From positions 21,354,186-21,418,185 of the forward strand of contig OX246738.1 in assembly GCA_945910005.1 (NCBI GenBank): a DNA stretch of 64,000 nucleotides, read 5' to 3'. A program made the position numbers and the translations under genes. Shown here in pieces: positions 42,101 to 64,000 of this stretch. The notes under the pieces are model-generated. The model was given only the letters and a program-made list of their open reading frames with translations. It made no database searches and was not told the origin of the DNA. Source of the DNA: Isoperla grammatica (taxonomy: Eukaryota > Arthropoda > Insecta > Plecoptera > Perlodidae). Positions within the stretch are counted from its first letter, which is position 1. Each line of letters opens with the position of its first letter.

Positions 42101-45100
42101 AGGCTTCGAACACCATCGACGACTGAGCGATAAGTAACCAACTTACTAGTGTTTTTTCTTTTCCTTGCCAAAAGTATTCTTATATTCTAAACTTGCAAAG
42201 ATTAGGCCTCCGTTAGATTTTATTTCAATGCCCACATCCATAAAAATCCTGCTTTTATACATTATAATAGCAAATAAGAGAAAAAATCGTAAATTACCAT
42301 GCTCAGTAATATTACCAATTCCAATGTGACCGGTAATTTTGCATCTCTACAAAAACATAATATTACATGCATTCCAGTCTACGAAAACCAGCACAAAGCT
42401 ATTATGTATATACTAAAATAATAATAATTACAATAGTCAATGCATAGTGAATGACGATACAATCATAATGCTCCGTTACACAATAAGCTGATAACAATGT
42501 GTTATTATGTTATGTTACAGTCACCCGGCTCAATGCGGCAGCGCCACCCGTTGGAAGATTACGACCCCAACTCACAAGATAGTGGCTACAGCACTAGCTT
42601 TCCGGACAAGGACAGTGGTTTTCGGTAAGTGTACTTTCATTTGTTTTCTCAGTATGTAGTCTTCACCCAGAAGTAGAGTACTTTTTCTTAGCCATTGTAG
42701 TCGAGTATTGAGTATTGTAGATGTGATAGGTAGCCCTATGAATATCAAAATTTACAACGTGATGAAATCATATTATTATGTTGTGCCCAGGGCTAGAATT
42801 TGATATTTTTATAAAATTGAAAATTTTACAATAAGCCTATGTTTTTACAAACTTATAAAATGATATTTAACAGGAAAATATGACCAAATAATGAATGTAT
42901 TTATTTATTTATTTTTCAAATTAAATTGAGCATGAGGTCTACTTAGCCTATATATATCCTATGTGTGTCACACGCAAAAACTTACTGACCCGAAATAAAT
43001 GTTAAAATATACACGCACAATTTTAAAATGGTAAGTTACCAAGGCCACTTACTTTCAAGACCAATGAATTTTCGGAGTATAATTTATACTCCTTCCTCAG
43101 ACCCTCAGACCGAGGACAACCACAAACAACAGTTATCCTCCATCTGAGGAAGGAGTAGAAACTAGTATAGGCCTACTCCGAAAATTTGCCGGTTTTAAAG
43201 TAAGTGACCTTGGTGCCCTTCAAAAATTGTGTGTACCGGTATATATATATATAGTGTATACTTGGAGAGGCCAAAAGGCTGAGTTAATTGGAACTCAGAA
43301 CAAGATAAAACATGTTCTAGTGAGGGGAAAGGTACAGAAGGACGACAGCTTACCTGAGAATGTAGATAGGCCGCTTAGAGAAACGTATAGATGAGATTAA
43401 AATATTTACGGGTTATTCCGCCACATCCTACGTCCATATTGTGCCGACGTTTCAGGAACCTCATTGTCCCTATCTTCAGGGCGTCGAACTCCAACTCCCA
43501 AAGACGCCCTGAAGATAGTGACCATAAGGTTCCTGAAACGTCGGCACAATATGGAGTTAGGACGTGGCGGAATAACCCGCAAATATTTTAATTTTATTGT
43601 TATAAATCCTGGCCACGAAAGTTTTAGTGTTTTAATAATATATATTTATATGTTCTTCTACTCACGCTGAGTGATCAAGACCACTAGTTGGCCGAAACGT
43701 CTCAGTTTATTTGTCTTCTCATCTATATGTTTCTCTAAGCGACCTATCTACTTTCTCAGGTAAGCTGTTGTCCTTCGATACCTTTCCCCTCACTAGAACA
43801 TGTTTTATCTTGTTCTGAGTTCCAATTATATATATATGCCTAGTTATGATTCCTCCGGTGTAAAGTGGAGAGTAAATTTTGCTTGACAAAGGGTGGAATG
43901 GCAGAGTCGAGTTAAGTATATGATTTGTTTATGGTTGCTTTTGAGTTTGTTCTTCTTATGGAAAATAATAGCATGTAATAAAACAATAACATATAGCAAC
44001 AAATCATGTAGAGCCTACTTAACTTGACAGTTGTCTGTGCATATCGCCCTTAGTGCGTCAGAGTTTGATCACCACTGAGATATATTAAAAACGTAGGCCT
44101 ATATGCTTTATAAAGTTAAAATTGTAAATGTTATGTTTACTATAATAATTTTATAATAAATCATGTCAATAACTTAATACCACTTGAAATGTAGAAACTA
44201 AAACTTTTAAAAACGTCCATAAGGTTAATGAACGAATGAAACATCATGCATTTTTTAGTGTAACATGGAAATCATAGATTTGAATATTTAAAATCTATTT
44301 TGTTTGTAGGCCATGGGAGGGACAACTTCTTCAAATTTTAAAAATTGTGAAATTCAGTTGTTTAAGTTTATAACAAAATTACTTTCTATTGTGTTTAGAT
44401 TTGCAGAGCCTTTTGGTGTACCTCCTCGCAGGCAGTTTGTTGAGAAGTCACCGAGGAAAGAGAATTCGACCTCTCCAAGGAGACTGAACATGCAAATAAC
44501 GAACTCCCCTAATTTCTACAACAGCAACAGCAACAGTATGTCCTGTGGATCGGTCGGAAGTGATTCCATGGATGACCCTTTTCTGGAGCTATATGACAGT
44601 GACAAATATTCCGAAGATGCAAACTTACCATTTGGACTGAACAGTCTTCTAAATAAACCAATAGTCAAGGCTGAAAATGTGATTAACAATCCAATTTTTA
44701 ACGACGAAAATGCTGTTAGTAATGAATCCACCTTTTGCCGTGAAGAAAGACCTAGGATTAACTTCCATCGTAGTTTTTCTGTTGGAGATAACACCACACC
44801 TAACTCAAGTCGGGTAAGTCAGTTAAGATTTTCTTGTAATTTGTAATACAGACATGTAGCATTCACCATTATTTTCTCATTCATAGGTTTTTTGTGCTAA
44901 GTATTTCCCACTACTGGTTCAACCATTTAGTAGTCAAGCAGCAATAGTAGTAAGGGCAGTAACTGAAAACATTGACACAAAATATGGTGAAACTAAAACT
45001 GAATTATTTTTATTATTATTTTTATTGTCTTTGGGTAGCAATCGTTGTAAAAATGGATCCTGGCTGGGAATTGAACCTAGAACTCTGGGTTAACATGGAC

Positions 45101-48100
45101 AGCAACATGGCAGTCTTCTGTTTGATGTTCATCATTGTGGCAACAACCAATACGTAGCAATTTTGAGTAAAGGTTAGGTGGACAGGTAGAGCCAGTGGTA
45201 CTGGGTTCGAGCCCCAGGCTTGGAACACATTTTCCGACAATTAAGTTAAGTATGCAACTTATGCCAACTGCAACTTTGTCCCTTAAAGCAGCCTATTTAG
45301 CAATGATATTCTCAATATTTAACGTACCATACTTACTGTACAGCTTGCAGTCTAGAGTGCAACAAGAGGTTATGTTAGGCTAACATTGATTAGGAAATAA
45401 CTGCTGTAGGGCAGGGCCTTTCACTTGTACATTATAATATGTAACTGTAGTCTTTTTTTTTTCCTCTTATGCAATGATGACCTTTCAGCCATTCATTTAT
45501 ATACTAATGTGTTTTATTTAGATGATAGACCACAAGTTACAATAGTTATAAGTTACTGTTTGCCATTTTTCCCATTACACAATATGATCAATTTCATCAT
45601 TCAGAACTCAGATTAAAAAGCACAAAAACAACTAGTATTGCACACTCCTTAGAAACTTTCATAGCTACCAAGTACCAACTAATACAATGTGCCTGTACTA
45701 TACCATATGGCTGTTTTTTCTTTTATGCTCAAGTGCATTGTGCTGTTTGTTCCTAGGCTCGAAGCTGTCTGTTCAAGTCTTCTAATGTCTCTCCTAAAAG
45801 TAAACCCAGCTACAAGCAAACACCAGACAATGCGTCACATCCCTTTGAGACGGTGCGGTGCGTCAAGCGTCCAGAACCTTCCTGTGATAATAGTCCTTCG
45901 AAAGCCAAACGGCGCAAATACAGCACACTACACAGCATATCGGAGAATGAAAACATCGTAGACTCGATCGTCACGGGATTTAACTTCAAGAGACAAGTAA
46001 AACTTCAGCGCAGTTATTCAGAAACTGAGGCTACAATTATGCATGCTGTACACAGATGTAAGTAAAAAGAAGGCAATAAAATACTGTGTGTAAAATGCTG
46101 CAAATTACTTTGTCACAAATTTTTCCAGAATGTGATAAAACATTATTTCCATATCATGCAAAAACATTCGTGAAATAAATCTAAATACTAGGTTGTCAGT
46201 TTATGTGAAAATAGTGATCAATAATCACAAATGTCTAGTCGATAATCATATCAAATTCATTTACAAATTCATAACATAGGCCTAGGTACTAAATGTGTTC
46301 AACACAAATAGGCCTACTGTAGCAGGTAGCTGAAAAAACATGAGAATTAACTTTTCTACTAGGAAAACGCTCTGTTTGACGCGTTGATAAGCGAGCGCGT
46401 CATTATCTACGAACTTTCTGGCGAAAAGATTTCAATGCTAATACAAACAACAATTAACAACAATTCAAGAATGCGCATTGCAAAAATGTTTCTAATTTCC
46501 ATAGCTATTATACTTCCCGACATTGTTGGATGCAGTGCAATATGCGTTGCTAAGAATTTTCGCTGTCATGTTTTCGCCGCGGTCCGCCACCGTTACTAAC
46601 AGTTATTGACAGCAATAGAAATGTAATTTCTGCCTCTAATATGTATCAAATCGCGTTTACATTAGTATATTCGTGACCGGACAAAAATTTACTATAAGAT
46701 AGCCACCTCACATTTTGCTGTTACTGTGTTTCAGAAATATATTTTCGAGTAACTTTTGTGTAACTTTGCCAATACTTATCAGATCGCCATTACATTAACA
46801 TATTCATAACCGGAAAAATCAATAGAAAAATCTGGCTATCTCACATTTTGCCGCCATTTTGTTTCAGAAAAATATTTCGCAGTAACTATGGTGTAACTTT
46901 GTAACTTTTCGAACGATTTTGCCTCAAAACTATACACCTTCAATCCACATCGAGGCTTGTGGATGGTCCAAATTTCAAGTTGATCGGACTTTCCGTTCGA
47001 CCGCTATCGACGGACATAAAAACAAAAAAAAAAAAAAAAAAAAAAAAAACACACAAAAAAAAACAGAACGAAGTGCCATAAGAGTCAAGTGGAGACGCTC
47101 GCTTCGCTTGCTTAAAAATTATTTTTTCTTTTTTTCTTATCTTTAAAATAGCATTTATATGAACATTTTTTATTATTGTGGGATTAGATATTATCCTGGG
47201 GCAATTGGTTACTGTCTAACTGGAAAAGTAGATGCAGTGGCCTACTGCATTTTACTACATGCACTGAATTTAATATTGTTGAGAAATCTGCAAACTGTCT
47301 CTGACAGTATCCCTAGTATAAAATTAGCTGGAGTATGTGACACAATGCCTCATGGCATGAAAAGAGTGACTTCACTGGTTAACACTGATCTGTCCTAATA
47401 GTACTGGTAATGTAGACCTACCTAGTAGGCCAAATATGGGTATTAAACTATTAATTTAATGGGTACATAGACAATTATCCTTGAAGATGATCCAAAAATA
47501 TTTAGTTTCAATTTACGTAATTTTGATCTTTTTTTAGTATGTTTCCGTTGATTCGCATGGCAATTGGCATTCAATCCATATGGAATTTTGAGACCCATCT
47601 AAGCTACATAATACTCCATGTGACAGTAGGCCTATCACGTACCAGCGTTTCAATATGATGCTAAATTGTAAATTTTAAATTCACCTAGCATGCTCTGTTA
47701 CCATGCAAGTTGGTTTTAATTTTGTTTAATTAAACATGGTTTGATATTATGCCTACATGAAAGCATTTATACTTACGTTTCCTGGGTTAGGTTATATTTT
47801 GTTGTTTTGTTTTCATTGCTTATCTTGTCCTGTTGCAGCATTTACTGAACCAGATCTCATTGGAGACTTCACAAAGCCATACCTATTACCGCTAGTGACC
47901 GGCCGTCATCAAGATCTCAAGACTATCTCACCTGACACGTTGTCTGAACTGATAAGTGGGAAGTTCGACGAAACAATCGTCACATACTCCATTGTTGATT
48001 GTCGCTATCCGTACGAGTTTGATGGAGGCCATATAAAAGGCGCTATAAATATTTATACCAGAGATCAGATGTTAAAACATTTTGTGGATGTTTGGAAGGA

Positions 48101-49616
48101 TGCAGGAAAATGTGAAACGTCATTGACTTCTGTAAAACGTAAACATATTGTGGTTTTCCACTGTGAATTCTCATCAGAACGAGGACCTAACTTGTAAGTA
48201 CTACATTTTTTACTGAAGTACTACTACACCCAGCCCACTATTAAAGAATTATTTTTACAAAATTATTCGGGATTTAGCATAGTAATTTTGAATTTTGATT
48301 CTCTTTCAAAAAGTATCTCAAATGCACAAATGGTATTAATAATGTTTTAACAAAGTTATTCACTCAGTGCCTAGTTTAAGTAGGTCTTGATCTTGACTAT
48401 AATAGCCTACATAGAACCATTGAAACATGAAAATACTTAAATTTTTAAAGGTTTTTGGCCAGTGACACTGAACATTGATTGTTCCTAAATATTCAGCCTA
48501 CCTGTGTTCCCCAATTACAGTAATAACTAATAAGACTTCGTTTTGCCATGTAATGCACGTTTCAAAACAAGTCTCCCACGAGATTGTTTCTGGAGTAAAT
48601 ATATACAGTACGTACTTGCATAAGATTTTTGTGTTCCTTTCTCCCCATTCCCAGCTATTGTCCGTAATGTGCATGCAGCCATTCTATTCTCAGTTTACCT
48701 CCGGTAGAGAATTGTTTTTATAAAATTATACTGGATTTAGCATAGTAATTTTAATTCTCCTTCAAAAATCATCTAAAATGGTACTAATGTTTTAACTTTT
48801 AACAAAGTTCATTCAGTACCCTTAGTAGGTCTTGATCTTGACTACTTTTTCTAAGGGTGCTAGTAATTATATAGAAATCAATTACTGTAGTATTGTCAAA
48901 CTTTTTAGCAACTAAGTTAGGCTAGAGTAAGATCGGTTTACACACTTTACTTTCCTAACATTTAATATTTTGTTCCACGCATATAGTTTTCCTAACTGTT
49001 TTACTCGGGATCGCTGCCATTGGCCAGATTTATAAAATGTTGCCTCTCATTGGCTGGGCTAAGAATTTTAGGTATATGAGCTAAGATTGCTGTGGTTTTC
49101 TTAAATTTTAGGAAGTTGTGTGAATGCCATAATGCTTTTGGCTTGATTGAGCTTTGTTAACCCTTAAATCTTGCATCTTAAATAAGTGAGTAAACCAACC
49201 TGTATGCAAGTATCTTGTTGTAGGTATTTTTTATATTGAAGGCTTACGTTCAGTTCAGTTCAAATTGGTCAGTTTTAATTATATCCCTTTGTCAATTGTT
49301 AATGGTATGTTACAATGGTAACAATGGTATGTACTGTATATGTTACAGATACCGCTTCTTGCGCAACTGTGACCGTGACCACAATAAGGAGTGTTACCCA
49401 GCTCTGTTCTACCCAGAGCTCTATCTGCTAGAAGGTGGCTATAAGAACTTCTTCCAAAAACACAGTCAGATGTGCGATCCTCAAGCATACCGACCTATGC
49501 ATCACCCAGAAAACGAAGGTGACCTGCGCCACTTCAGGGCAAAATCCAAATCTTGGAACGGTGACACCAAAAGTAGACTTGCTCTGCGGCATAATCTCAA
49601 GCGCTTAGGTCTTTAA
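16200..49616 (+). CDS. CDC25: Cdc25/String-type M-phase inducer phosphatase, spliced gene span
   Basis: Cdc25 removes the inhibitory phosphates from Thr14/Tyr15 of cyclin-dependent kinases and so triggers cell-cycle transitions. The gene is assembled here from exons at 16200-16242 (tentative), 40637-40814, 42521-42624, 44399-44813, 45757-46057, 47839-48193 and 49349-49616. All introns are GT-AG with agreeing phases, giving about 550 residues without the missing start. That is at or slightly above the usual 450-560 for the family. The order is a divergent Ser-rich regulatory N-terminus, a VKRPEP block, then the rhodanese-like catalytic domain with VDCRYPYEFDGGHIKGA and HCEFSSERGP. The sequence ends with TAA at 49614-49616. 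Identity of the catalytic half is secure. The 5' end is not: no initiator exon joined to 16200 was found, and an alternative initiator at 38500 fits as well. Confidence 0.9.
19400..19500 (+). repeat. tRNA-derived SINE-like head
   Basis: Contains an A-box-like TGGCCTCTGTGG and, about 45 nt downstream, a B-box-like GGTTCGAGTCC. The spacing suits an RNA polymerase III promoter, but no cloverleaf can be drawn, so I read it as a tRNA-derived SINE fragment and not a tRNA gene. Confidence 0.4.
20037..20380. repeat. MITE with internal duplication, TIR ACCTTGTTCACACTTTG
   Basis: The ends are inverted copies of ACCTTGTTCACACTTTG, followed by CCACTAACAGAAGTTA. Inside, the CGAACGTAGTTACGGCGCTA segment and the TGTTCACACT/GTGTGAACA ends occur twice (near 20150 and 20275; right-end units near 20322 and 20375). 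This indicates a partial tandem duplication or a nested insertion of the same family. It is non-coding. No clear target-site duplication is seen. Confidence 0.85.
21058..21131. repeat. Short imperfect hairpin
   Basis: ACAAATTACCA near 21070 pairs with TGGTAATTTGT near 21109, and ATACTG pairs with CAGTAT further out. About 70 bp in total. Possibly a tiny MITE. Confidence 0.5.
22794..22857 (+). repeat. SINE-like 3' tail, copy B
   Basis: Matches the tail at 14948-15005: CACCCCTGACGTCATAT, then GTCGAGTACGTCGTTGAATA and AATAATCAAAT. Same strand as the other copy. Confidence 0.6.
23955..23991. repeat. Perfect 16-bp hairpin
   Basis: CACATATTACTCAGAC at 23955-23970 is the exact complement of 23976-23991, with a 5-nt loop (TGGGT). 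No flanking terminator-like T-run is present. It may be a palindromic remnant or a structured element. Confidence 0.8.
24873..25090 (+). repeat. tRNA-derived SINE, family S1, copy 1
   Basis: Head GCCAGCGTAGTTGGCCGCG (A-box region), B-box GGTTCGAATCC at about 24966-24976, then TCATGTAGCG, CCTCATAATTACCCAC and the tail GTGAGACGTAAAGCCCA with ATCATCA. The complement at 27208-27393 aligns along its whole length, which defines the family and its ends. Internal RNA polymerase III boxes and a TCA-rich tail fit a tRNA-derived SINE. Confidence 0.82.
25091..26302. other. Intronic stretch with GC-rich patch and poly-G
   Basis: Contains a CpG-rich patch near 25700-25960 and an 18-nt poly-G run at 26015-26032. 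Open frames overlap on both strands here (61-114 codons) without a recognisable domain. Confidence 0.45.
26218..26270. repeat. Dispersed 50-bp repeat, copy 1
   Basis: TTCCTGGCGTTCTTTCACGC, followed by ATTCGTCAAGGCGGTCTTCC, is repeated with small changes at 33399-33450 in the same orientation. Probably a fragment of an unidentified interspersed repeat. Confidence 0.6.
26303..26490 (-). repeat. SINE-like repeat with ATTT tail, copy 3
   Basis: On the minus strand this reads a B-box-like GGTTCGATTC, then TGGAGCCATCATCGCAACA, AATGAAAATCAGTTCTTG and GAGTGGATACAAATTC ahead of a short ATTT tail. The GAAAATCAGTTCTTG segment also occurs at 38925-38945. It links the ATTT-tailed repeats to a tRNA-like head. 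Confidence 0.65.
27208..27393 (-). repeat. tRNA-derived SINE, family S1, copy 2
   Basis: Minus-strand copy of the 24873 element. Reading the complement gives GCCAGCGTAGTTGGCCGCGG, a B-box GGTTCGAATCC (27324-27334 on the + strand as GGATTCGAACC), then CATGAGACGTTAAGCC and an ATCATCATC tail. Full-length correspondence with the other copy. Confidence 0.85.
29166..29342. repeat. Inverted repeat around a poly-A run
   Basis: AACCAATTTTTAGGCTTTAT at the left (29168) is matched by the complement AAGCGTAAAGATTGGTTT at the right. Inner arms AAATCAACGTTT/AAACGTTGATTT flank a poly-A run of about 28 nt. Non-coding foldback. Confidence 0.65.
32200..32335 (-). repeat. tRNA-like SINE fragment
   Basis: The minus strand carries a B-box-like GGGGTCGAATCC with a CCTGGTTAAAC head region. 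No cloverleaf or full family alignment is possible within the window. Confidence 0.35.
33399..33450. repeat. Dispersed 50-bp repeat, copy 2
   Basis: Second copy of the repeat at 26218: GTTCCTGGCGTTCTTTCACA then CATTCGTTAACGCTGTCTTC. Roughly 85-90% identical by eye. Confidence 0.6.
33648..33990 (+). other. GC-rich open island of unknown nature
   Basis: A block markedly more GC-rich than its surroundings stays open in three overlapping + frames (33648-33887, 33733-33984, 33782-34033) and one - frame (33699-33947). I recognise no domain in any of them. It could be a decayed mobile-element coding fragment or an exon of an unrecognised gene. No convincing splice pair was found. Confidence 0.25.
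34166..34252 (+). repeat. 5S-rRNA-derived repeat (SINE-like or pseudogene)
   Basis: The string AGCATCGAAGTTAAGCAACA, then TCGGTCTAGGTCAG and GGTGGTGACCGC, follows the 5S rRNA core: the CGAAGTTAAGCAACNTCGG internal promoter region, GGTCAG and GGGTGACCGC. The preceding AAGCCGGTTCCC matches the CACCGGTTCTC part. The first quarter and the terminal stem are missing, and there is a short indel, so it is not a functional 5S gene. A 5S-derived SINE head or a retroposed 5S pseudogene both fit. Confidence 0.8.
35545..35672 (+). repeat. SINE-like repeat with ATTT tail, copy 4
   Basis: Contains GATGGTGTTCGAAGCCTACA, AGTCCCCCACTGCAAATCAG and ACTGAGTGGGTAGACTCTAA, ending in ATTTATTT. The complement at 42001-42135 is nearly identical over about 125 bp. 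Confidence 0.85.
35700..35868 (+). repeat. SINE-like fragment with ACGTCGTTAAA tail
   Basis: TAGCTCTGCCTGTCTTGAAA (compare CTGTCTGTCGTAAGGCG at 31285) is followed by GGCTACGTCGTTAAAACCAA. It ends where the hAT-like element at 35877 has inserted. Confidence 0.5.
35877..36588. mobile_element. Non-autonomous hAT-like element with perfect 8-bp TSD
   Basis: The ends are inverted: CAGGGGTGACGCTA at the left and TAGCGTCGCCACTG at the right. The exact 8-bp direct repeat ATCATGTA flanks both sides (35869-35876 and 36589-36596). Eight-bp duplications and CAG-starting ends are hallmarks of hAT transposons. The 712-bp interior has no transposase frame and carries subterminal C-rich and G-rich tracts, including a 19-nt poly-G at 36469-36487. 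The perfect duplication suggests a young insertion. Confidence 0.9.
36597..36720 (-). repeat. tRNA-derived SINE, family S1, 3' fragment
   Basis: The minus strand reads GATTAGCCATTATTGCACAA, ATATGAGACGTTAAGCC and a tail of ATCAATCAATCA. This matches the 3' half of the copies at 24873 and 27208. It begins directly after the right target duplication of the hAT-like element. Confidence 0.7.
37131..37806. repeat. Repeated GTGATAC/GTATCAC unit with poly-C spacers
   Basis: The segment CCCGTTGCCGATGTGATACA, then CTTGTATC and GTACAGA-AGGTATCACC, occurs at about 37134-37180, 37694-37736 and 37765-37806; a partial one is at 37196-37212. Each unit is internally palindromic (GTGATAC against GTATCAC) and is followed by a C-rich run. 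Between the first and last units lies sequence rich in CGCGAAA and GAAATTCGCG motifs. It looks like a diverged composite element. Confidence 0.7.
38355..38700 (+). promoter_or_regulatory. GC-rich island, possible alternative Cdc25 promoter
   Basis: After a 19-nt poly-G run at 38355-38373 the sequence becomes GC- and CpG-rich (GCCCGAGCTCGAAGCCGCGG) for about 300 bp, 2 kb upstream of the first secure Cdc25 exon. It includes initiator-like CAGTC sites and the candidate initiator exon at 38500. Composition and position only. Confidence 0.25.
38500..38555 (+). CDS. CDC25: Candidate alternative initiator exon of Cdc25
   Basis: ATG at 38500 opens a frame reading MSWDTVITDCCEVCDSCS with two bases left over before a GT donor at 38556 (AAG|GTAGGG). 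Joining to 40637 completes an Arg codon and keeps the Cdc25 frame. The donor is acceptable but not strong. The peptide has no similarity that I recognise. The alternative is the exon at 16200, with which it would be mutually exclusive. Confidence 0.2.
38915..39160 (+). repeat. SINE-like repeat and two (ATTT)n arrays
   Basis: The body CCACTGAAAATCAGTTCTTG, then ACTGAGTGGGTTGGAGACAA, precedes a pure ATTT array (about 38984-39047). After 45 bp of unique sequence a second ATTT array follows (about 39091-39160). Same SINE-like family as 35545. Confidence 0.75.
39363..39410 (-). repeat. tRNA-derived SINE, family S1, small fragment
   Basis: TTACGTCGTATTTTGGCTAC and GGCTAATCGAGACGAG match the 36610-36665 portion of the S1 family. 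Confidence 0.5.
40637..40814 (+). CDS. CDC25: Cdc25 exon, N-terminal regulatory region
   Basis: Acceptor TTTTTTTCAG|A and donor CAAG|GTACCG. The exon enters in phase 2 (one base completes an Arg codon), then reads 59 codons starting LLKGSVKLTNANREPGSLSR and ending STNMQVFSPVK. It is basic and Ser/Asn-rich, with no fold recognisable, as expected for the poorly conserved Cdc25 N-terminus. FSPVK provides an SP site typical of CDK or Polo-box regulation. Membership of the gene rests on phase agreement and frame continuity into the next exon. Confidence 0.8.
41151..41691. repeat. MITE-like element in Cdc25 intron
   Basis: The ends are inverted copies of AATAGGTTTGTTTGTTTTAC (right end AATAGGTTCGTTTGTTTTAC on the other strand). 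The subterminal regions carry repeated GTGTAGTGTTA/TACACTTTACACT motifs on both arms. 541 bp, non-coding. No clear target duplication. Confidence 0.82.
42001..42135 (-). repeat. SINE-like repeat with ATTT tail, copy 6
   Basis: Reverse complement of 35545-35672: on the + strand AAATAAATAAATTCACATTT, then AGTCCACCCACTTAGTAACT and TGTAGGCTTCGAACACCATC. High identity to the copy at 35545. Confidence 0.85.
42521..42624 (+). CDS. CDC25: Cdc25 exon with DSG motifs
   Basis: Acceptor TATGTTACAG and donor TTCG|GTAAGT. The exon enters in phase 0 and leaves in phase 2. It reads SPGSMRQRHPLEDYDPNSQD, then SGYSTSFPDKDSGF and a split Arg codon. QDSGYSTS and KDSGF resemble the DSG-type sequences used for ubiquitin-mediated turnover of vertebrate Cdc25A, although that role here is inference. 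The next exon continues directly with FAEPFGVPPRR. Confidence 0.88.
43037..43215. repeat. Foldback with paired CTGAGGA...GAAA motifs
   Basis: The left and right arms of about 65 bp are complementary: AAGGCCACTTACTTTCAAGA at the left against AAAGTAAGTGACCTTGGTG at the right. Each arm, read in the proper direction, carries CTGAGGAAGGAGTA followed by TACTCCGAAAATT. That is a stem-forming unit bounded by CTGAGGA and GAAA, similar in plan to the motif in the Penelope-like remnant at 56540. Confidence 0.8.
43288..43829. repeat. Composite nested inverted repeat (Penelope-like ends)
   Basis: The outer arms at 43288-43395 and 43720-43829 are complementary (GGAACTCAGAACAAGATAAA against its complement). 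Inside lies a second pair at about 43396-43489 and 43501-43590, complementary over roughly 90 bp. It contains GTTCCTGAAACGTCGGCACA, GACGCCCTGAAGATAGTGAC and a GCGGAATAACCCG block. The order CTGAAGA, short stem, GAAACGTC, GGCGGAATAACCCG, ATTTTAATTTTATT matches the tail at 56538-56660. This suggests inverted terminal fragments of Penelope-like elements, a group known for inverted end repeats. Confidence 0.75.
44399..44813 (+). CDS. CDC25: Cdc25 exon, central regulatory region
   Basis: Acceptor TTGTGTTTAG|A completes the split Arg codon; donor CGG|GTAAGT, phase 0. The 138 codons read FAEPFGVPPRRQFVEKSPRK and so on. They contain the Cdc25 landmark SMDDPFLELY followed by LPFGLNSLLNKPI, equivalent to the conserved acidic and LP-x-L-x-x-L-L blocks of family members. 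Near the end, FHRSFSVGD resembles a basophilic kinase/14-3-3 type site. The part upstream of 44399 that also stays open (from 44313) is intron, because the acceptor and the phase fix the start. Confidence 0.92.
45050..45240. repeat. Two tRNA-like B-box fragments in Cdc25 intron
   Basis: GGAATTGAACC near 45067 (minus-strand B-box GGTTCAATTCC) and GGTTCGAGCCCC near 45203 (+ strand) lie about 135 bp apart in opposite orientations. Likely remnants of two tRNA-derived SINEs. Confidence 0.45.
45757..46057 (+). CDS. CDC25: Cdc25 exon, pre-catalytic region
   Basis: Acceptor TTTGTTCCTAG and donor AGAT|GTAAGT; enters in phase 0 and leaves in phase 1. It reads ARSCLFKSSNVSPKSKPSYK, then VRCVKRPEPSCDNSP, KAKRRKYS and LQRSYSETEATIMHAVHR. 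The VKRPEP block and the RSYSETEATIM block are characteristic of Cdc25 proteins just ahead of the catalytic domain. KAKRRK is a plausible nuclear localisation signal. Confidence 0.93.
46642..46905. repeat. Tandem dimer of a ~130-bp unit in Cdc25 intron
   Basis: Two adjacent, diverged copies (about 46642-46770 and 46771-46905) share ATCGC-TTACATTA, ATATTC-T-ACCGGA, CTCACATTTTGC and TTTCAGAAA-ATAT followed by GTGTAACTTTG. It is followed by AAATTTCAAGTTGATCGGAC and a poly-A run near 47022-47048. Confidence 0.7.
47839..48193 (+). CDS. CDC25: Cdc25 exon, catalytic domain with active site
   Basis: Acceptor TCCTGTTGCAG, donor AACTT|GTAAGT; enters in phase 1, leaves in phase 2. It reads FTEPDLIGDFTKPYLLPLV, then the substrate-domain hallmark VDCRYPYEFDGGHIKGAINI and the active-site loop HCEFSSERGP. 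The catalytic Cys is encoded at 48162-48164 and the phosphate-binding Arg at 48180-48182, as in the Cys-x5-Arg signature. All landmark residues are intact, so the enzyme should be active. The frame open from 47757 upstream of the acceptor is intronic. Confidence 0.97.
48242..48847. repeat. Intronic direct duplication
   Basis: About 48242-48405 and 48710-48847 are diverged direct copies. Both contain GGATTTAGCATAGTAATTTT (GGGATTTAGC in the first), TTCAAAAA, ATGTTTTAAC, AACAAAGTT and GTAGGTCTTGATCTTGACTA in order. The unit is about 140-165 bp and the copies lie 468 bp apart, between the two catalytic exons. Confidence 0.85.
49349..49616 (+). CDS. CDC25: Cdc25 terminal exon
   Basis: Acceptor TATATGTTACAG; the first base completes a Leu codon after ERGPN. 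It reads YRFLRNCDRDHNKECYPALF, YPELYLLEGGYKNFF, CDPQAYRPMHHPENEGDLRH and FRAKSKSWNGD, ending RLGL and TAA at 49614-49616. YPELYLLEGGYK-FF and the C-terminal FRAKSKSW helix region are standard Cdc25 features, the latter being part of the CDK-docking tail. An antisense frame at 49279-49488 is a shadow. Confidence 0.97.
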
Positions 49617-58957: not shown

Positions 58958-60278
58958 TGAATAGGATGTGAATGCAATATTTAAAAGATTAGCTTTTCCT
59001 ATATTAACATCATAAACATATTTTCATTTTCAGAAGCACATATTCTGTAATATTTAAAAGATTAACTTTTATATATTAACATCATAAACATATTTTCATT
59101 TTTATATTTCCTTTCACAATACATTATTTTAAAACGTCATGTCACTCACTCCTGTGACGTCACTATTCAGGTGTATGAAGGAATGTGTTGCGATTGATGG
59201 TAAGTGACATCACATGCAGACAAACAATCTGTCTACTCCTGCTGTATCTTTCTTTGACTGGTGAACATTCAGGCGCGTAACAACTTTGTTTTAAGTTGGA
59301 CAGGGGCACAAATATAAAGACACAATTTTCACAACAATTTTGTTATATAGGAAAAGAATCTGGTATATGGTTGTAGAATCATTTGTCATGCTACTTACTG
59401 CAGTCGATTAGTTCGCACCTTTTTTAACAACGCAACTTTTCCCTCAGGGGGATGTCTAGCGTATCTACCAGGTTCGTCACCACGGCTCGACAAATAGTTG
59501 ATTGACATAAAATATATTCAGTATAAACCTACTATTAACACAAAATAAAATCAGGAAAGTATTAGTATTTTGGTTTTTGCAACAGTGGGAGCCCAAAATT
59601 TCATGCTACTAGTGTAAACGGGGTCTAGGTGGAGCTCCAGCAGCTGACGCAAAAAAAATCATACGATATTCTCTTCTCAAGTGCCCGGAAAATGAGTAGA
59701 TTAATTTATTTTTCATCCAGAAGGATTTTTGTGAGTTATTATTACTAAACTAAAACCATATCTAAAACTATTTTAGAGAGAAGCGATGCTGGGTTTTATA
59801 CCACTATATATTAGTACCGTGCAGTGCACGATTAAACGATTTTGGACCTTTTGGTTGGACAATTATGGGGGGCGATTCGCCCCCCCCCCCCCTTCCCTGT
59901 AACCGCTAACTGCTACTGTATATTCATTATAATTACCAATATATTTTGACTTGCAAATAAATTGTGTTATTCACTGTGATTGTTTATTAAAATTGAAAAT
60001 AAAAGACAATATTCAAACGTTTTTGTATATGTATAGATATAGTTCGAAACTTTGTTACTGTTGTAGACCTAGTGGTTTTGCCAGATTATCCAAGGGGTGC
60101 TTCAGCCCACCCTGACTGGGGGGGGGGGGTCAGTGAGTAGAGTGGGGGCGGGGGGTCAATTGCCCCCATTCCCCCCCCCCCCACCCCCACCCCACATGAA
60201 TATTTCTAGAATCGTAATCAACATTTTTAAGTTGTTTAAAACACAATCAGTTTTAAGGCGTATGGTTTAAGGTTTAAG
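58958..60278. other. Non-coding stretch with C/G runs
   Basis: A short direct duplication (ATATTTAAAAGATTA near 58978 and AATATTTAAAAGATTAAC near 59051) and several C- and G-runs (59880-59892, 60119-60130, 60171-60182). No gene recognised. Confidence 0.5.
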
Positions 60279-60600
60279 GCGTAGTGAATGGGGCTTTGCA
60301 CGCAAAGCTTGACGTAGAATGCGCCACCACCGTCCAAGCCCAAATCCATGACCTGCTGGATGGATGAGTAAATCAGCGCGGACAAGGTCTACTTGACCCA
60401 TCCAGCAGGCTGTGATAACAGCATTTTGCCAAAGAAGTAGCTCAAGTCCAGAGCCTCCTGGATGGGTAAATCAGCCCTTTTTTCATAGCTAAAAAGCTAT
60501 GCGGAAATCAAGTAGACCTTGTCTGAGGGCTGGCACTACGCTGGCGCTGCGAGTGGGAGAATGTGGCAGTGCAAAGCCCCATTGAGCAGGGCAGTGAGAT
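60279..60600. repeat. Composite palindromic repeat
   Basis: AATGGGGCTTTGCAC at about 60287-60301 is complementary to GTGCAAAGCCCCATT at 60569-60583. Inside, GACAAGGTCTACTTGA (60381-60396) is complementary to 60508-60523. CTGGATGGGTAAATCAGC-like sequence occurs directly repeated near 60357 and 60459. Confidence 0.75.
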
Positions 60601-60704
60601 TAGAAAAAGGGGAAGGGGAGATAACAAACTCAGGAAGACATGTAAAGCTGAACTCTTTTCTGGAAAGGACGACACTGGATTGGAATGGATTGATCGAAGA
60701 CTAA

Positions 60705-60851
60705 GGTTGGAATTCATAGTCGGCCCCTACACCTAGGGGCACCCATTGTTGCTATGGATTTGTTTTGTTTATGGGAAATAACATGGAAACAACTGTTACC
60801 TTGGTAACAATGGGCGCCCCTAGGTGTAGGGGCTGACTATGAATTCCAACC
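60705..60851. mobile_element. Harbinger-like MITE with TAA duplication
   Basis: 147 bp with arms of about 50 bp: left GGTTGGAATTCATAGTCGGC, right end complementary (GACTATGAATTCCAACC). TAA flanks both sides (60702-60704 and 60852-60854). A 3-bp TAA/TTA duplication is typical of PIF/Harbinger elements. No coding capacity. Confidence 0.75.
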
Positions 60852-61116
60852 TAAGTGGGACAGAGGAAAACATGGGGAAAGGAAGGCAGAGGAGGAGGAT
60901 AAAGTTGGAAGGTCAGAGAAAGAGTGGATGCGCCCGCCACTGGTCCGGAGGGGTCATCTTCGGGATGAAACAACTACCATACATACAACAACCATGTAGT
61001 TGCTAGTTATAGTTATATACTATTGATGTAGAAAATCATAAAATAGGGGCAATAATTATAAATTTTCATTGTAAAAAGCGGAACTCATTTTGGTCAATAA
61101 ATAAATTCATAATGAA

Positions 61117-61124
61117 CTACTACA

Positions 61125-61156
<32 letters not shown>
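61117..61156. repeat. (CTA)n microsatellite
   Basis: Short trinucleotide array ending 18 bp before the start codon of the 61174 gene. In the gene's frame it would read poly-Leu, but no ATG precedes it in frame and the frame is closed by TAA at 61102-61104. Confidence 0.9.
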
Positions 61157-61173
61157 CTGATGAACTACCTAAG

Positions 61174-64000
61174 ATGGCGGAGGAAGTGGAGAGCCTGCTG
61201 CGTCGCTCCCTGTATTTTTACAACAGCACCCCAATACAGGACAATTTTGAGTGTAAGTTAGATCAAACTTATTATAGTGAAACAATATTAAATAGCCAAA
61301 ACGGGGTCAGTCCGACTTCGAACGTTACGTCGCCGTATAACTCGTGCCGAAAAGTTGGCCTAGGCGTTGGCGCGTTTTCCGGAAGCACGATGTACAGGCC
61401 TTGGCCTAGTGGTCAAGTGAACTCAGATCTTTGCGATAACCAGCGATTATACAGTGAAGTGTTAATAAACAGTGAAATTAGCCAAAACGGGATCAGTCCG
61501 ACTTCCAATGTTACGTCGCCGTATAACTCGTGCCGAAAAGTAGGCCTAGGCGTAGGCCTAGGCGTCTCCGCATTTTCCGAGAGCACTAGTGCTCAAGTGA
61601 ACTCTGTATTATGCGGTAATCATCGACCCTACAGTGAAGTGTTGATAAACAGTGAAATTACGCCTAGGCCTAGTAATAGTTTATCATTTACTAATAAAAA
61701 TATTGATGGACAGAGCGATGAAGTAGGCCTACATAACCTCAAAGCGTCGGAGCACAGAAACGTGACTATAGCAACAGATCATCACATCCACCGCCATCTA
61801 AATCACAAGGAAATCTCAAGCAACGTGAAGGCAGCGTCCTCAGTGCACAGACAAGCTACAACCTGCTACCAACCGCAGGAAAACAAAACAACTAAAATCA
61901 AACCAGTTCCAATCACAAAGATCAATGACCAACACAAGACACCATCGACCCTACAAATAAACGGAAACCCAGACCCGCGCCCAAAAATCCATGAAATAAA
62001 TGGGAACATACTCAATACCCCTGAAACCATGTCAATTGCACACTGTGTAGCAGCAGACCTAAGAATGAGTGCAGGTGTGGCTCGAGAATTGAGAAGAGTT
62101 GCCAGCAATGACAGTGCACTAAAGCAACAAAATAGAGATGTGGGCAAGGTACCAGTTCTGTATAATGGAAAAAGATATATTTTTTACATGATCACCAAGG
62201 AGCACTCCGATGGAAAGCCCACTCTTGGCACCCTATTCACTGCTTTAATGGAATTAAGCAAAAAATGTATGACATATAAAATAAAAAATTTAGCTATGCC
62301 TAAAATTGGGTGCGGGCGTGACAAGCTAAAGTGGGAACAGGTTCGACTCCTTATTGAGACTGCATTTATGTTCACAGAAACCAATATTACCATATACAAT
62401 TGGCAAAACACAGTAAGCACGTATGAAACATGCCAATCAACAAATAGGCCAAATTCGTGCGCGGTAACGAATGGAGGAAAACAGGATGTTCCGCATTGGC
62501 CTATAGGTGTAGGTGCTAATTTTCTAGACCATAGCACAGACTATCACGATAACTATAACGATAACTACCAGTATCATCGGAAACAAGCAAAAGCTCGTCA
62601 TGCTGAACCAAAGCCACATCACTATCCAATAAATACTTCGGGTAGGAACAACAAGCCTGACGAAAATGGCCGTAAAGGCCCAACATCAAAAAGTACACAA
62701 CATTCCAACCCCTCTCAATGTAAGCTTACAGGTACGCAGCCTAGCCTATCAACTAGGAACCGGTTTGACATCCTGAGGGACCACTATTCAAGATCTGAAT
62801 GTAGTAGTTCGGAACAAGAGATCAACCCAATTAGGCCTAGATCACACTGGCCACAGACAACAGCTAGGCCTAATCAACAACAAAAACAACAGCAACAACA
62901 ACATGTCAGTAGGAAGATGACAAGCTGCAATAAGACTCCCCAGATAACCATAACAATAGATGCGGACAGCCACGGACGCAAACTCCGCCACAGATTGGAA
63001 GATCAACTAGGCCTAGGTCAAGAAAGCCGGTTCCGAGTTAAATCGTGTTTCAAACCAAACGCAAAAATTAAGCAAGTTGTCGAAGGTTTGGAAATTCCGC
63101 AGAGCAAGGATGAGATCAAAATTATCATAGGTGGGACTAATGATATTGAAACCATACCCCAAACGATCGACGCGAACGTGACCAATCTAACAACCAGTCA
63201 GAGACTCCACATCAAGGAAAACATAGTAGAGCCAATAGTTAACCTGATAGAGCAAACCGGCAGCCGCATACTTCTTACTTCAATACCTTGCAGATATGAC
63301 AAACCAGACTTAAACAACATTATTATGAAAGCAAATGACTTTATTCTACAGAAAATACTGTCATTAGGCTTAGCAGAAGGAGTCAACTATATAGACCTGA
63401 ATAGCATTCCACTAAGAAGATCTGACTATACACAGCACGGCCTGCATCTGAATCACAGTGGCAAAAGAAAACTCTGTGAGGCTATCTCCATAGCAATAAG
63501 AAGGCAAGAGGAGGGAGAGAGAGCGGCCGAGGGTCCAGCCAAGACGTCTCCAGTGCACGGCGAGATGACCGAGGGGCCAGCCGGGGAGATGCCAGCGCAC
63601 GGCGAGATGACTGAGGGGCCAGCCGGGGAGATGCCAGCGCACGGCGAGATGACTGAGGGGCCAGCCGGGGAGACGCCAGCGCACGGCGAGATGACCGAGG
63701 GGCCAGCCGGGGAGATGCCAGCGCACGGCGAGATGACTGAGGGGCCAGCCGGGGAGACGCCAGCGCACGGCGAGATGACTGAGGGGCCAGCCGGGGAGAT
63801 GCCAGCGCACGGCGAGATGACTGAGGGGCCAGCCGGGGAGACGCCAGCGCACGGCGAGATGACCGAGGGGCCAGCCGGGGAGACGCCAGCGCACGGCGAG
63901 ATGACGGAGGGGCCAGCCGGGGAGACGCCAGCGCACGGCGAGATGACTGAGGGGCCAGCCGGGGAGACGCCAGCGCACGGCGAGATGACTGAGGGGCCAG
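61174..64000 (+). CDS. Macrodomain (TARG1/OARD1-like) + SGNH-hydrolase-like fusion protein, C-terminus beyond window
   Basis: A single uninterrupted frame of 942 codons begins at ATG 61174 (AAGATGG), the first in-frame ATG after the stop at 61102, and is still open at the window end. Residues 1-190 include a duplicated block (SQNGVSPTSNVTSPYNSC, then RKVGLGVG). Residues about 270-410 form a TARG1-type macrodomain: SIAHCVAADLRMSAGVA, MITKEHSDGKPT and MPKIGCGRDKLKWE. The two residues TARG1 uses for deacylating ADP-ribosyl-glutamate correspond to Lys342 and Asp383. Residues 568-576 are Gln-rich. Residues about 590-770 are SGNH-like: ADSHGR (Ser599), GGTND (654-657) and HGLHLNHSGK (755-764), with the usual Asp of D-x-x-H replaced by His755. 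From residue 796 there are 14-residue repeats. I know of no gene by this architecture. A retroelement ORF1-like or domesticated protein is likely, because SGNH esterases occur in ORF1 of CR1/L2-type LINEs. A GTAAGT at 61251 could be a splice donor, but the frame does not need it. Confidence 0.85.
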   Translation, partial: MAEEVESLLRRSLYFYNSTPIQDNFECKLDQTYYSETILNSQNGVSPTSNVTSPYNSCRKVGLGVGAFSGSTMYRPWPSGQVNSDLCDNQRLYSEVLINSEISQNGISPTSNVTSPYNSCRKVGLGVGLGVSAFSESTSAQVNSVLCGNHRPYSEVLINSEITPRPSNSLSFTNKNIDGQSDEVGLHNLKASEHRNVTIATDHHIHRHLNHKEISSNVKAASSVHRQATTCYQPQENKTTKIKPVPITKINDQHKTPSTLQINGNPDPRPKIHEINGNILNTPETMSIAHCVAADLRMSAGVARELRRVASNDSALKQQNRDVGKVPVLYNGKRYIFYMITKEHSDGKPTLGTLFTALMELSKKCMTYKIKNLAMPKIGCGRDKLKWEQVRLLIETAFMFTETNITIYNWQNTVSTYETCQSTNRPNSCAVTNGGKQDVPHWPIGVGANFLDHSTDYHDNYNDNYQYHRKQAKARHAEPKPHHYPINTSGRNNKPDENGRKGPTSKSTQHSNPSQCKLTGTQPSLSTRNRFDILRDHYSRSECSSSEQEINPIRPRSHWPQTTARPNQQQKQQQQQHVSRKMTSCNKTPQITITIDADSHGRKLRHRLEDQLGLGQESRFRVKSCFKPNAKIKQVVEGLEIPQSKDEIKIIIGGTNDIETIPQTIDANVTNLTTSQRLHIKENIVEPIVNLIEQTGSRILLTSIPCRYDKPDLNNIIMKANDFILQKILSLGLAEGVNYIDLNSIPLRRSDYTQHGLHLNHSGKRKLCEAISIAIRRQEEGERAAEGPAKTSPVHGEMTEGPAGEMPAHGEMTEGPAGEMPAHGEMTEGPAGETPAHGEMTEGPAGEMPAHGEMTEGPAGETPAHGEMTEGPAGEMPAHGEMTEGPAGETPAHGEMTEGPAGETPAHGEMTEGPAGETPAHGEMTEGPAGETPAHGEMTEGP
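63559..64000 (+). repeat. In-frame 42-bp coding minisatellite
   Basis: More than ten near-identical units each encode GEMTEGPAGE(T/M)PAH, and the array runs past the window edge. Variation is mainly ATG/ACG at one codon (Met/Thr) and synonymous ACC/ACT/ACG. The repeat gives an acidic, Gly/Pro/Thr-rich tail. A preceding degenerate unit (AEGPAKTSPVH) at about 63526-63558 is probably the seed. The 188-codon reverse-strand frame (63412-63978) is a by-product of this array. Confidence 0.95.

Follow-up and report, generated by a model that had tools for sequence, protein, structure and literature searches.

Among the closest described systems, human TARG1/OARD1 (C6orf130), an ALC1-like macrodomain hydrolase, consists of one small free-standing domain (146–160 residues in PDB chains), DarG is a bacterial DNA-ADP-ribose antitoxin, and the macrodomains of coronaviruses and alphaviruses are ADP-ribose erasers which, according to passages of PMC7232374, counter host ADP-ribosylation. 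Esterases of the SGNH fold occur in the first open reading frame (ORF1) of ZfL2-1, CR1, L2 and RTEX elements, and other accessory enzymes known in retroelements are helicases, exonucleases and methylases (PMC6338049, in the available text of which 'adp-ribos' occurs 0 times). Here we describe a protein-coding frame at the end of a 64,000-nucleotide stretch of the genome of the insect Isoperla grammatica (contig OX246738.1, positions 21,354,186 to 21,418,185; hereafter the window), in which a TARG1-type macrodomain shares a protein of at least 942 amino acids with a second enzyme-like fold, that of an SGNH-like domain. We put at about one half the probability that this frame encodes the first, ORF1- or gag-like protein of a retroelement of animals, one that took up a TARG1 gene from its host.

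The macrodomain spans aa 262-409 (61957..62400, + strand) and matches human TARG1 at 3.1e-28 in a direct comparison. Its K342 (62197..62199, +) is the counterpart of TARG1 Lys84, and D383 (62320..62322, +) that of TARG1 residue 125, the two lying 41 residues apart in both proteins; residue 125 is printed as Glu125 in the relevant passage of a review (PMC7050489) and is Asp in the PDB chain. The catalytic pair thus sits where the first-pass annotation of this DNA, made from the letters alone, had placed it. Fold and sequence, the catalytic pair and a tree placement with animal TARG1 all agree with membership of the TARG1 class, whereas TARG1/OARD1 is a stand-alone protein and this domain forms part of a frame at least 942 aa long; we therefore speak of a TARG1-type domain and not of an OARD1 gene. 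Compared with DarG, the domain falls far under the 250-bit cut-off of that family, human TARG1 being closer. Among PHROGs profiles, phrog_335 ('phosphatase') spans the macrodomain at 7.1e-19, which fits phage-side relatives of TARG1 and DarG. Judged from these sequence features, the macrodomain is predicted to be an ADP-ribosyl hydrolase, an activity that in TARG1 covers Asp/Glu-, acetyl- and nucleic-acid-linked ADP-ribose.

Phylogenetic analysis was based on 30 rows, comprising the query, the human protein, P0001-P0004 and, as outgroup, 24 of 34 loci from viral contigs, with few named animal rows; the other 10 viral-contig loci were omitted by hand, with no redundancy test. The query grouped with the environmental proteins P0001, P0002 and P0004 (99/96), then with human OARD1 (92/80) and then with a Mesorhabditis protein, giving a 6-row clade that stood apart from the viral rows (99/95), although the branching order inside the query/P0001/P0002/P0004 group was weakly supported (95/75, 88/35). 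In these four rows the end branches measured 0.82-1.47, against 0.30 for the human protein and a median of 0.49. Because of this grouping and the long end branches, the macrodomain looks like an animal-type, fast-changing TARG1 with a few environmental relatives, and one might guess that P0001, P0002 and P0004 are members of an element-borne TARG1 lineage. A phage or bacterial source was dismissed, since the tree separates the query from the viral rows. Searched by itself against a set of 5.8 billion proteins, the macrodomain yielded 17 candidates, of which 4 passed; for the frame minus its tail, 0 of 7996 scored did so, in a list that low-complexity words may have crowded. The stretch carrying both domains (61957-63510) had no match in the viral contigs. 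The 34 viral-contig loci with TARG1-type relatives (L001-L034), found by profile search and including 13 on contigs >100 kb, might possibly serve phages as a counter to ADP-ribosylating defence.

For the second domain, at about aa 590-785 (62941..63528, +), structural comparison of its predicted model recovered the SGNH (flavodoxin-like) fold; the 50 PDB entries listed for it do not include 4c1b, the ZfL2-1 esterase, an absence to which no weight was given. It retains the block I serine S599 (DADSHGR; 62968..62970, +), the block III oxyanion asparagine N656 (GGTND; 63139..63141, +) and, in the block V motif H755-G-L-H758 (63436..63447, +), a predicted catalytic histidine, H758. Ser599 and the HGLHLN motif (aa 755-760) thus lie where they had been reported on first reading. 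By sequence alignment, the block II glycine is replaced by N629 (in FKPNA), whereas P0005 and P0006 have Gly there, and we therefore call the domain SGNH-like. Against Pfam Lipase_GDSL_2 the domain scored 18.7 bits, or 22.9 when scanned alone, for a cut-off of 32.9, and the macrodomain scored 17.6 bits against Pfam Macro, for a curated cut-off of 22. Both families proposed in the first-pass annotation were thus matched, each below its curated threshold, and because of these scores Pfam annotation at curated cut-offs would miss both domains. With the SGNH domain alone, 2 of 69 candidates from the 5.8-billion protein set passed. An SGNH profile found no loci in the viral contigs and 4 bacterial loci (at 24-27%) in GTDB contigs, which resemble ordinary bacterial SGNH enzymes.

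Both domains lie in a single frame (61174..63999, +) of 942 aa that runs without a stop up to the end of the window and extends, stop to stop, over 965 codons from 61105. Its ATG stands in AAGATGG, a good Kozak context. In the genomic sequence the frame can be read over 2.8 kb without any intron, which is the sense of 'intronless' here. Upstream of a tandem array at its 3' end, 815 codons are free of stops, while the remaining five frames hold 31-77 stops each over the same stretch. Order-1 Markov resampling of these 815 non-repeat codons gave a longest stop-free run of 241 codons and runs of ≥800 in 0 of 2000 resamples, which rules out a chance open frame.

Signs that the frame has been read as protein come from two N-terminal repeats, copy 1 at aa 34-92 (61273..61449, +) and copy 2, in the same frame, at aa 93-152 (61450..61629, +). 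The 53 aligned codons show 28 base differences between the copies, and 16 of these fall on third positions, an excess reached in 64 of 20000 permutations. By the NG86 method the nonsynonymous rate (dN) is 0.12 and the synonymous rate (dS) 0.53, a dN/dS of about 0.23 (0.12/0.48 and 0.13/0.40 by LWL85 and YN00, respectively), although the estimate is rough, coming from a single pair of copies whose 53 codons were aligned at the protein level. Because of the third-position excess and dN < dS, translation and selective constraint probably acted on the frame following the N-terminal duplication. At its other end lies the in-frame 42-bp tandem array (GEMTEGPAGE[T/M]PAH; 63550..64000, +), with 10.7 copies at 97% matches, which runs off the window; across its 10 complete units, variation is confined to 2 of 42 positions, a third position where the change is synonymous and a second position (M/T). 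Both the long frame without a stop and the repeat tail of the original description were accordingly confirmed. A decayed or mis-assembled chimera, with halves from different genes or a tail that is an assembly artefact, would fit an array that reaches the window's end and a linker (about aa 410-589, 62401..62940, +) that is rich in S/Q/T/N and lacks a Pfam match. It sits poorly with 815 stop-free codons ahead of the array and with the array keeping frame, even if so uniform an array says little, and we consider such an origin highly improbable.

Three features point indirectly toward a mobile element, namely that the 2.8-kb frame needs no intron, that its sense strand is A-rich and that retroelements are known to use SGNH domains. 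The likeness to ZfL2-1, CR1, L2 and RTEX ORF1 esterases lies in the SGNH fold with Ser, Asn and His kept, possibly in the same position within a retroelement. The available texts of PMC4120745 and PMC5408684 use the word 'macro' 0 times, and no macrodomain is mentioned there for these ORF1s. The frame differs from such esterases in having His at the Asp site, Asn at the Gly site and no counterpart of H191. The last is a transposon-specific His of ZfL2-1, four residues before the oxyanion Asn according to passages of PMC3905857; by spacing from N656, its place in the frame is taken by Ile652. For another transposon-specific residue, Ser228 of ZfL2-1-type esterases, the spacing to the Asn differs. 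The first-pass parallel with CR1/L2 ORF1 is weakened by the replacement of H191 and of the Asp; the changed Gly and Asp positions had gone unrecorded in that annotation.

The missing H191 signature of LINE (long interspersed nuclear element) esterases would suit a gene carried as cargo or accessory by a different type of element, be it a Helitron, a tyrosine-recombinase, a long terminal repeat (LTR) or a Penelope-like element. Passages of PMC4021074 describe SGNH genes that accompany fish Helitrons, and part of PMC5408684 describes an SGNH ORF3 in bdelloid LTR and Penelope-like elements, whose capture was independent of that of the LINE esterases. In the 7 frames of the window scanned by Pfam, and among repeats of 60001-64000 sought within the window, no recombinase, integrase, helicase or LTR was noticed, and we regard this origin as unlikely.

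Several further observations, together with the changed H191 position, weigh against the retroelement assignment. The window closes inside the frame, and no reverse transcriptase, endonuclease, integrase, element end or target duplication was seen in it, with Pfam run on 7 of its frames; nor is there a second copy of the frame within these 64 kb. Companions of ZfL2-1-type esterases are a coiled coil or zf/lz, RRM, CCHC or PHD; the Pfam scan of the frame gave no RRM, PHD or zinc knuckle, and no CCHC-like pattern was found. Confidence in the SGNH model is middling (pLDDT, the predicted local distance difference test, of 63.8 from 3 sequences), and the Asp often present three residues upstream of the catalytic His is H755, a site at which P0005 and P0006 also have His and all 4 bacterial loci have Asp. 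As to distribution, part of PMC4120745 limits esterase ORF1s to two groups of L2 and CR1, both found in vertebrates alone; in contrast, passages of PMC3905857 place ORF1 esterases in many animal phyla.

An intact, constrained frame suits a host gene equally well. The main rival, and a serious one, is thus a domesticated or chimeric gene in which a retroposed TARG1 and an SGNH-type sequence, perhaps from an old element, were joined and kept by the host for ADP-ribosyl hydrolysis, the second domain serving to bind lipids or as a scaffold. The dN/dS between the N-terminal repeats, the good start context and the single copy in 64 kb all agree with it. The lack of any need for an intron and the A-rich sense strand speak against it, as do the tandem repeats within the frame and its long stretches of low complexity, features that are probably more usual in element ORF1s. 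A precedent is offered by the Texim SGNH hydrolases, described in passages of PMC4021074 as related to CR1 esterases and found outside retrotransposons in fish, Oikopleura, amphioxus and sea urchin. Texim proteins resemble the present one as animal SGNH proteins tied, in fish, to a mobile element; unlike it, they have multiple introns, are Helitron-associated and, in those passages, carry no macrodomain. Overall, a host gene seems to us possible, if somewhat improbable.

If the frame does belong to a retroelement, a role for each domain can be proposed. The SGNH-like domain would most likely bind lipids or membranes, because the ZfL2-1 esterase still binds liposomes after mutation of its active site (passages of PMC3905857); like that ORF1 esterase it might anchor the ribonucleoprotein of the element to membranes or lipids, with hydrolysis possibly weak or none. 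The macrodomain might strip ADP-ribose from proteins, RNA or cDNA of the element itself, or from proteins at the target site, cleaving linkages to Asp/Glu or to the ends or bases of nucleic acids in the manner of TARG1 and DarG, so that host PARP-type enzymes would be unable to mark or block the element. This counter-restriction role is proposed by analogy, because viral macrodomains counter host ADP-ribosylation, the likeness being that of an ADP-ribose eraser borne by a parasite. The full picture, of a retroelement and not a virus, whose ORF1 joins an active TARG1 to a membrane-tethering SGNH-fold domain and undoes PARP-type marking of its ribonucleoprotein, RNA or cDNA, is one we put forward tentatively and with some doubt. 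The observation underlying the first-pass annotation is confirmed and its interpretation as a whole partly supported.

Elsewhere in the window, a CDC25-type M-phase inducer phosphatase is encoded in two coding pieces on the + strand (PF06617 at 44310-44843 and Rhodanese at 47745-48194), pointing to an animal genome; this gene has at least two coding pieces, against a frame of 2.8 kb in the same window that needs no intron. The palindrome TAGGCCTA occurs 27 times in the window for 0.72 expected, a count reached in 0 of 100 shuffles, and with 7 copies inside the frame and 20 elsewhere, the frame has this sequence habit in common with its genome. Just upstream of the frame, an inverted repeat at 60700-60856, with 58-nt arms 90% complementary and 41 nt apart, resembles a small miniature inverted-repeat transposable element (MITE), and a second, weaker pair lies at 60384-60479. 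From the inverted-repeat edge, 47 codons in purine-rich DNA run to a stop (60856-60996, +); next come an AATAAA-like tract and, ending 17 bases ahead of the ATG, an (ACT)n array at 61116-61156. The interval 60856-61156 may be another element's end, a 5' leader or nothing; the idea that 60856-60996 ends another element's open reading frame was dropped, and its other tblastn matches in the window were at chance level (E 5.2, 8.4). A 69-bp tandem repeat lies at 105-518 (6 copies, 98% matches).

A non-exhaustive search of titles and abstract openings in the open-licence literature found no paper that places a macrodomain in a transposable element or beside an SGNH domain. RNA viruses are known to use ADP-ribose erasers against host defence, and a TARG1-type eraser on a retroelement, if true, would extend this conflict to mobile DNA. 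It would also make it possible to test directly whether retrotransposition is restricted by ADP-ribosylation, and would mean that ORF1 proteins can gain host enzymes beyond the known esterases.
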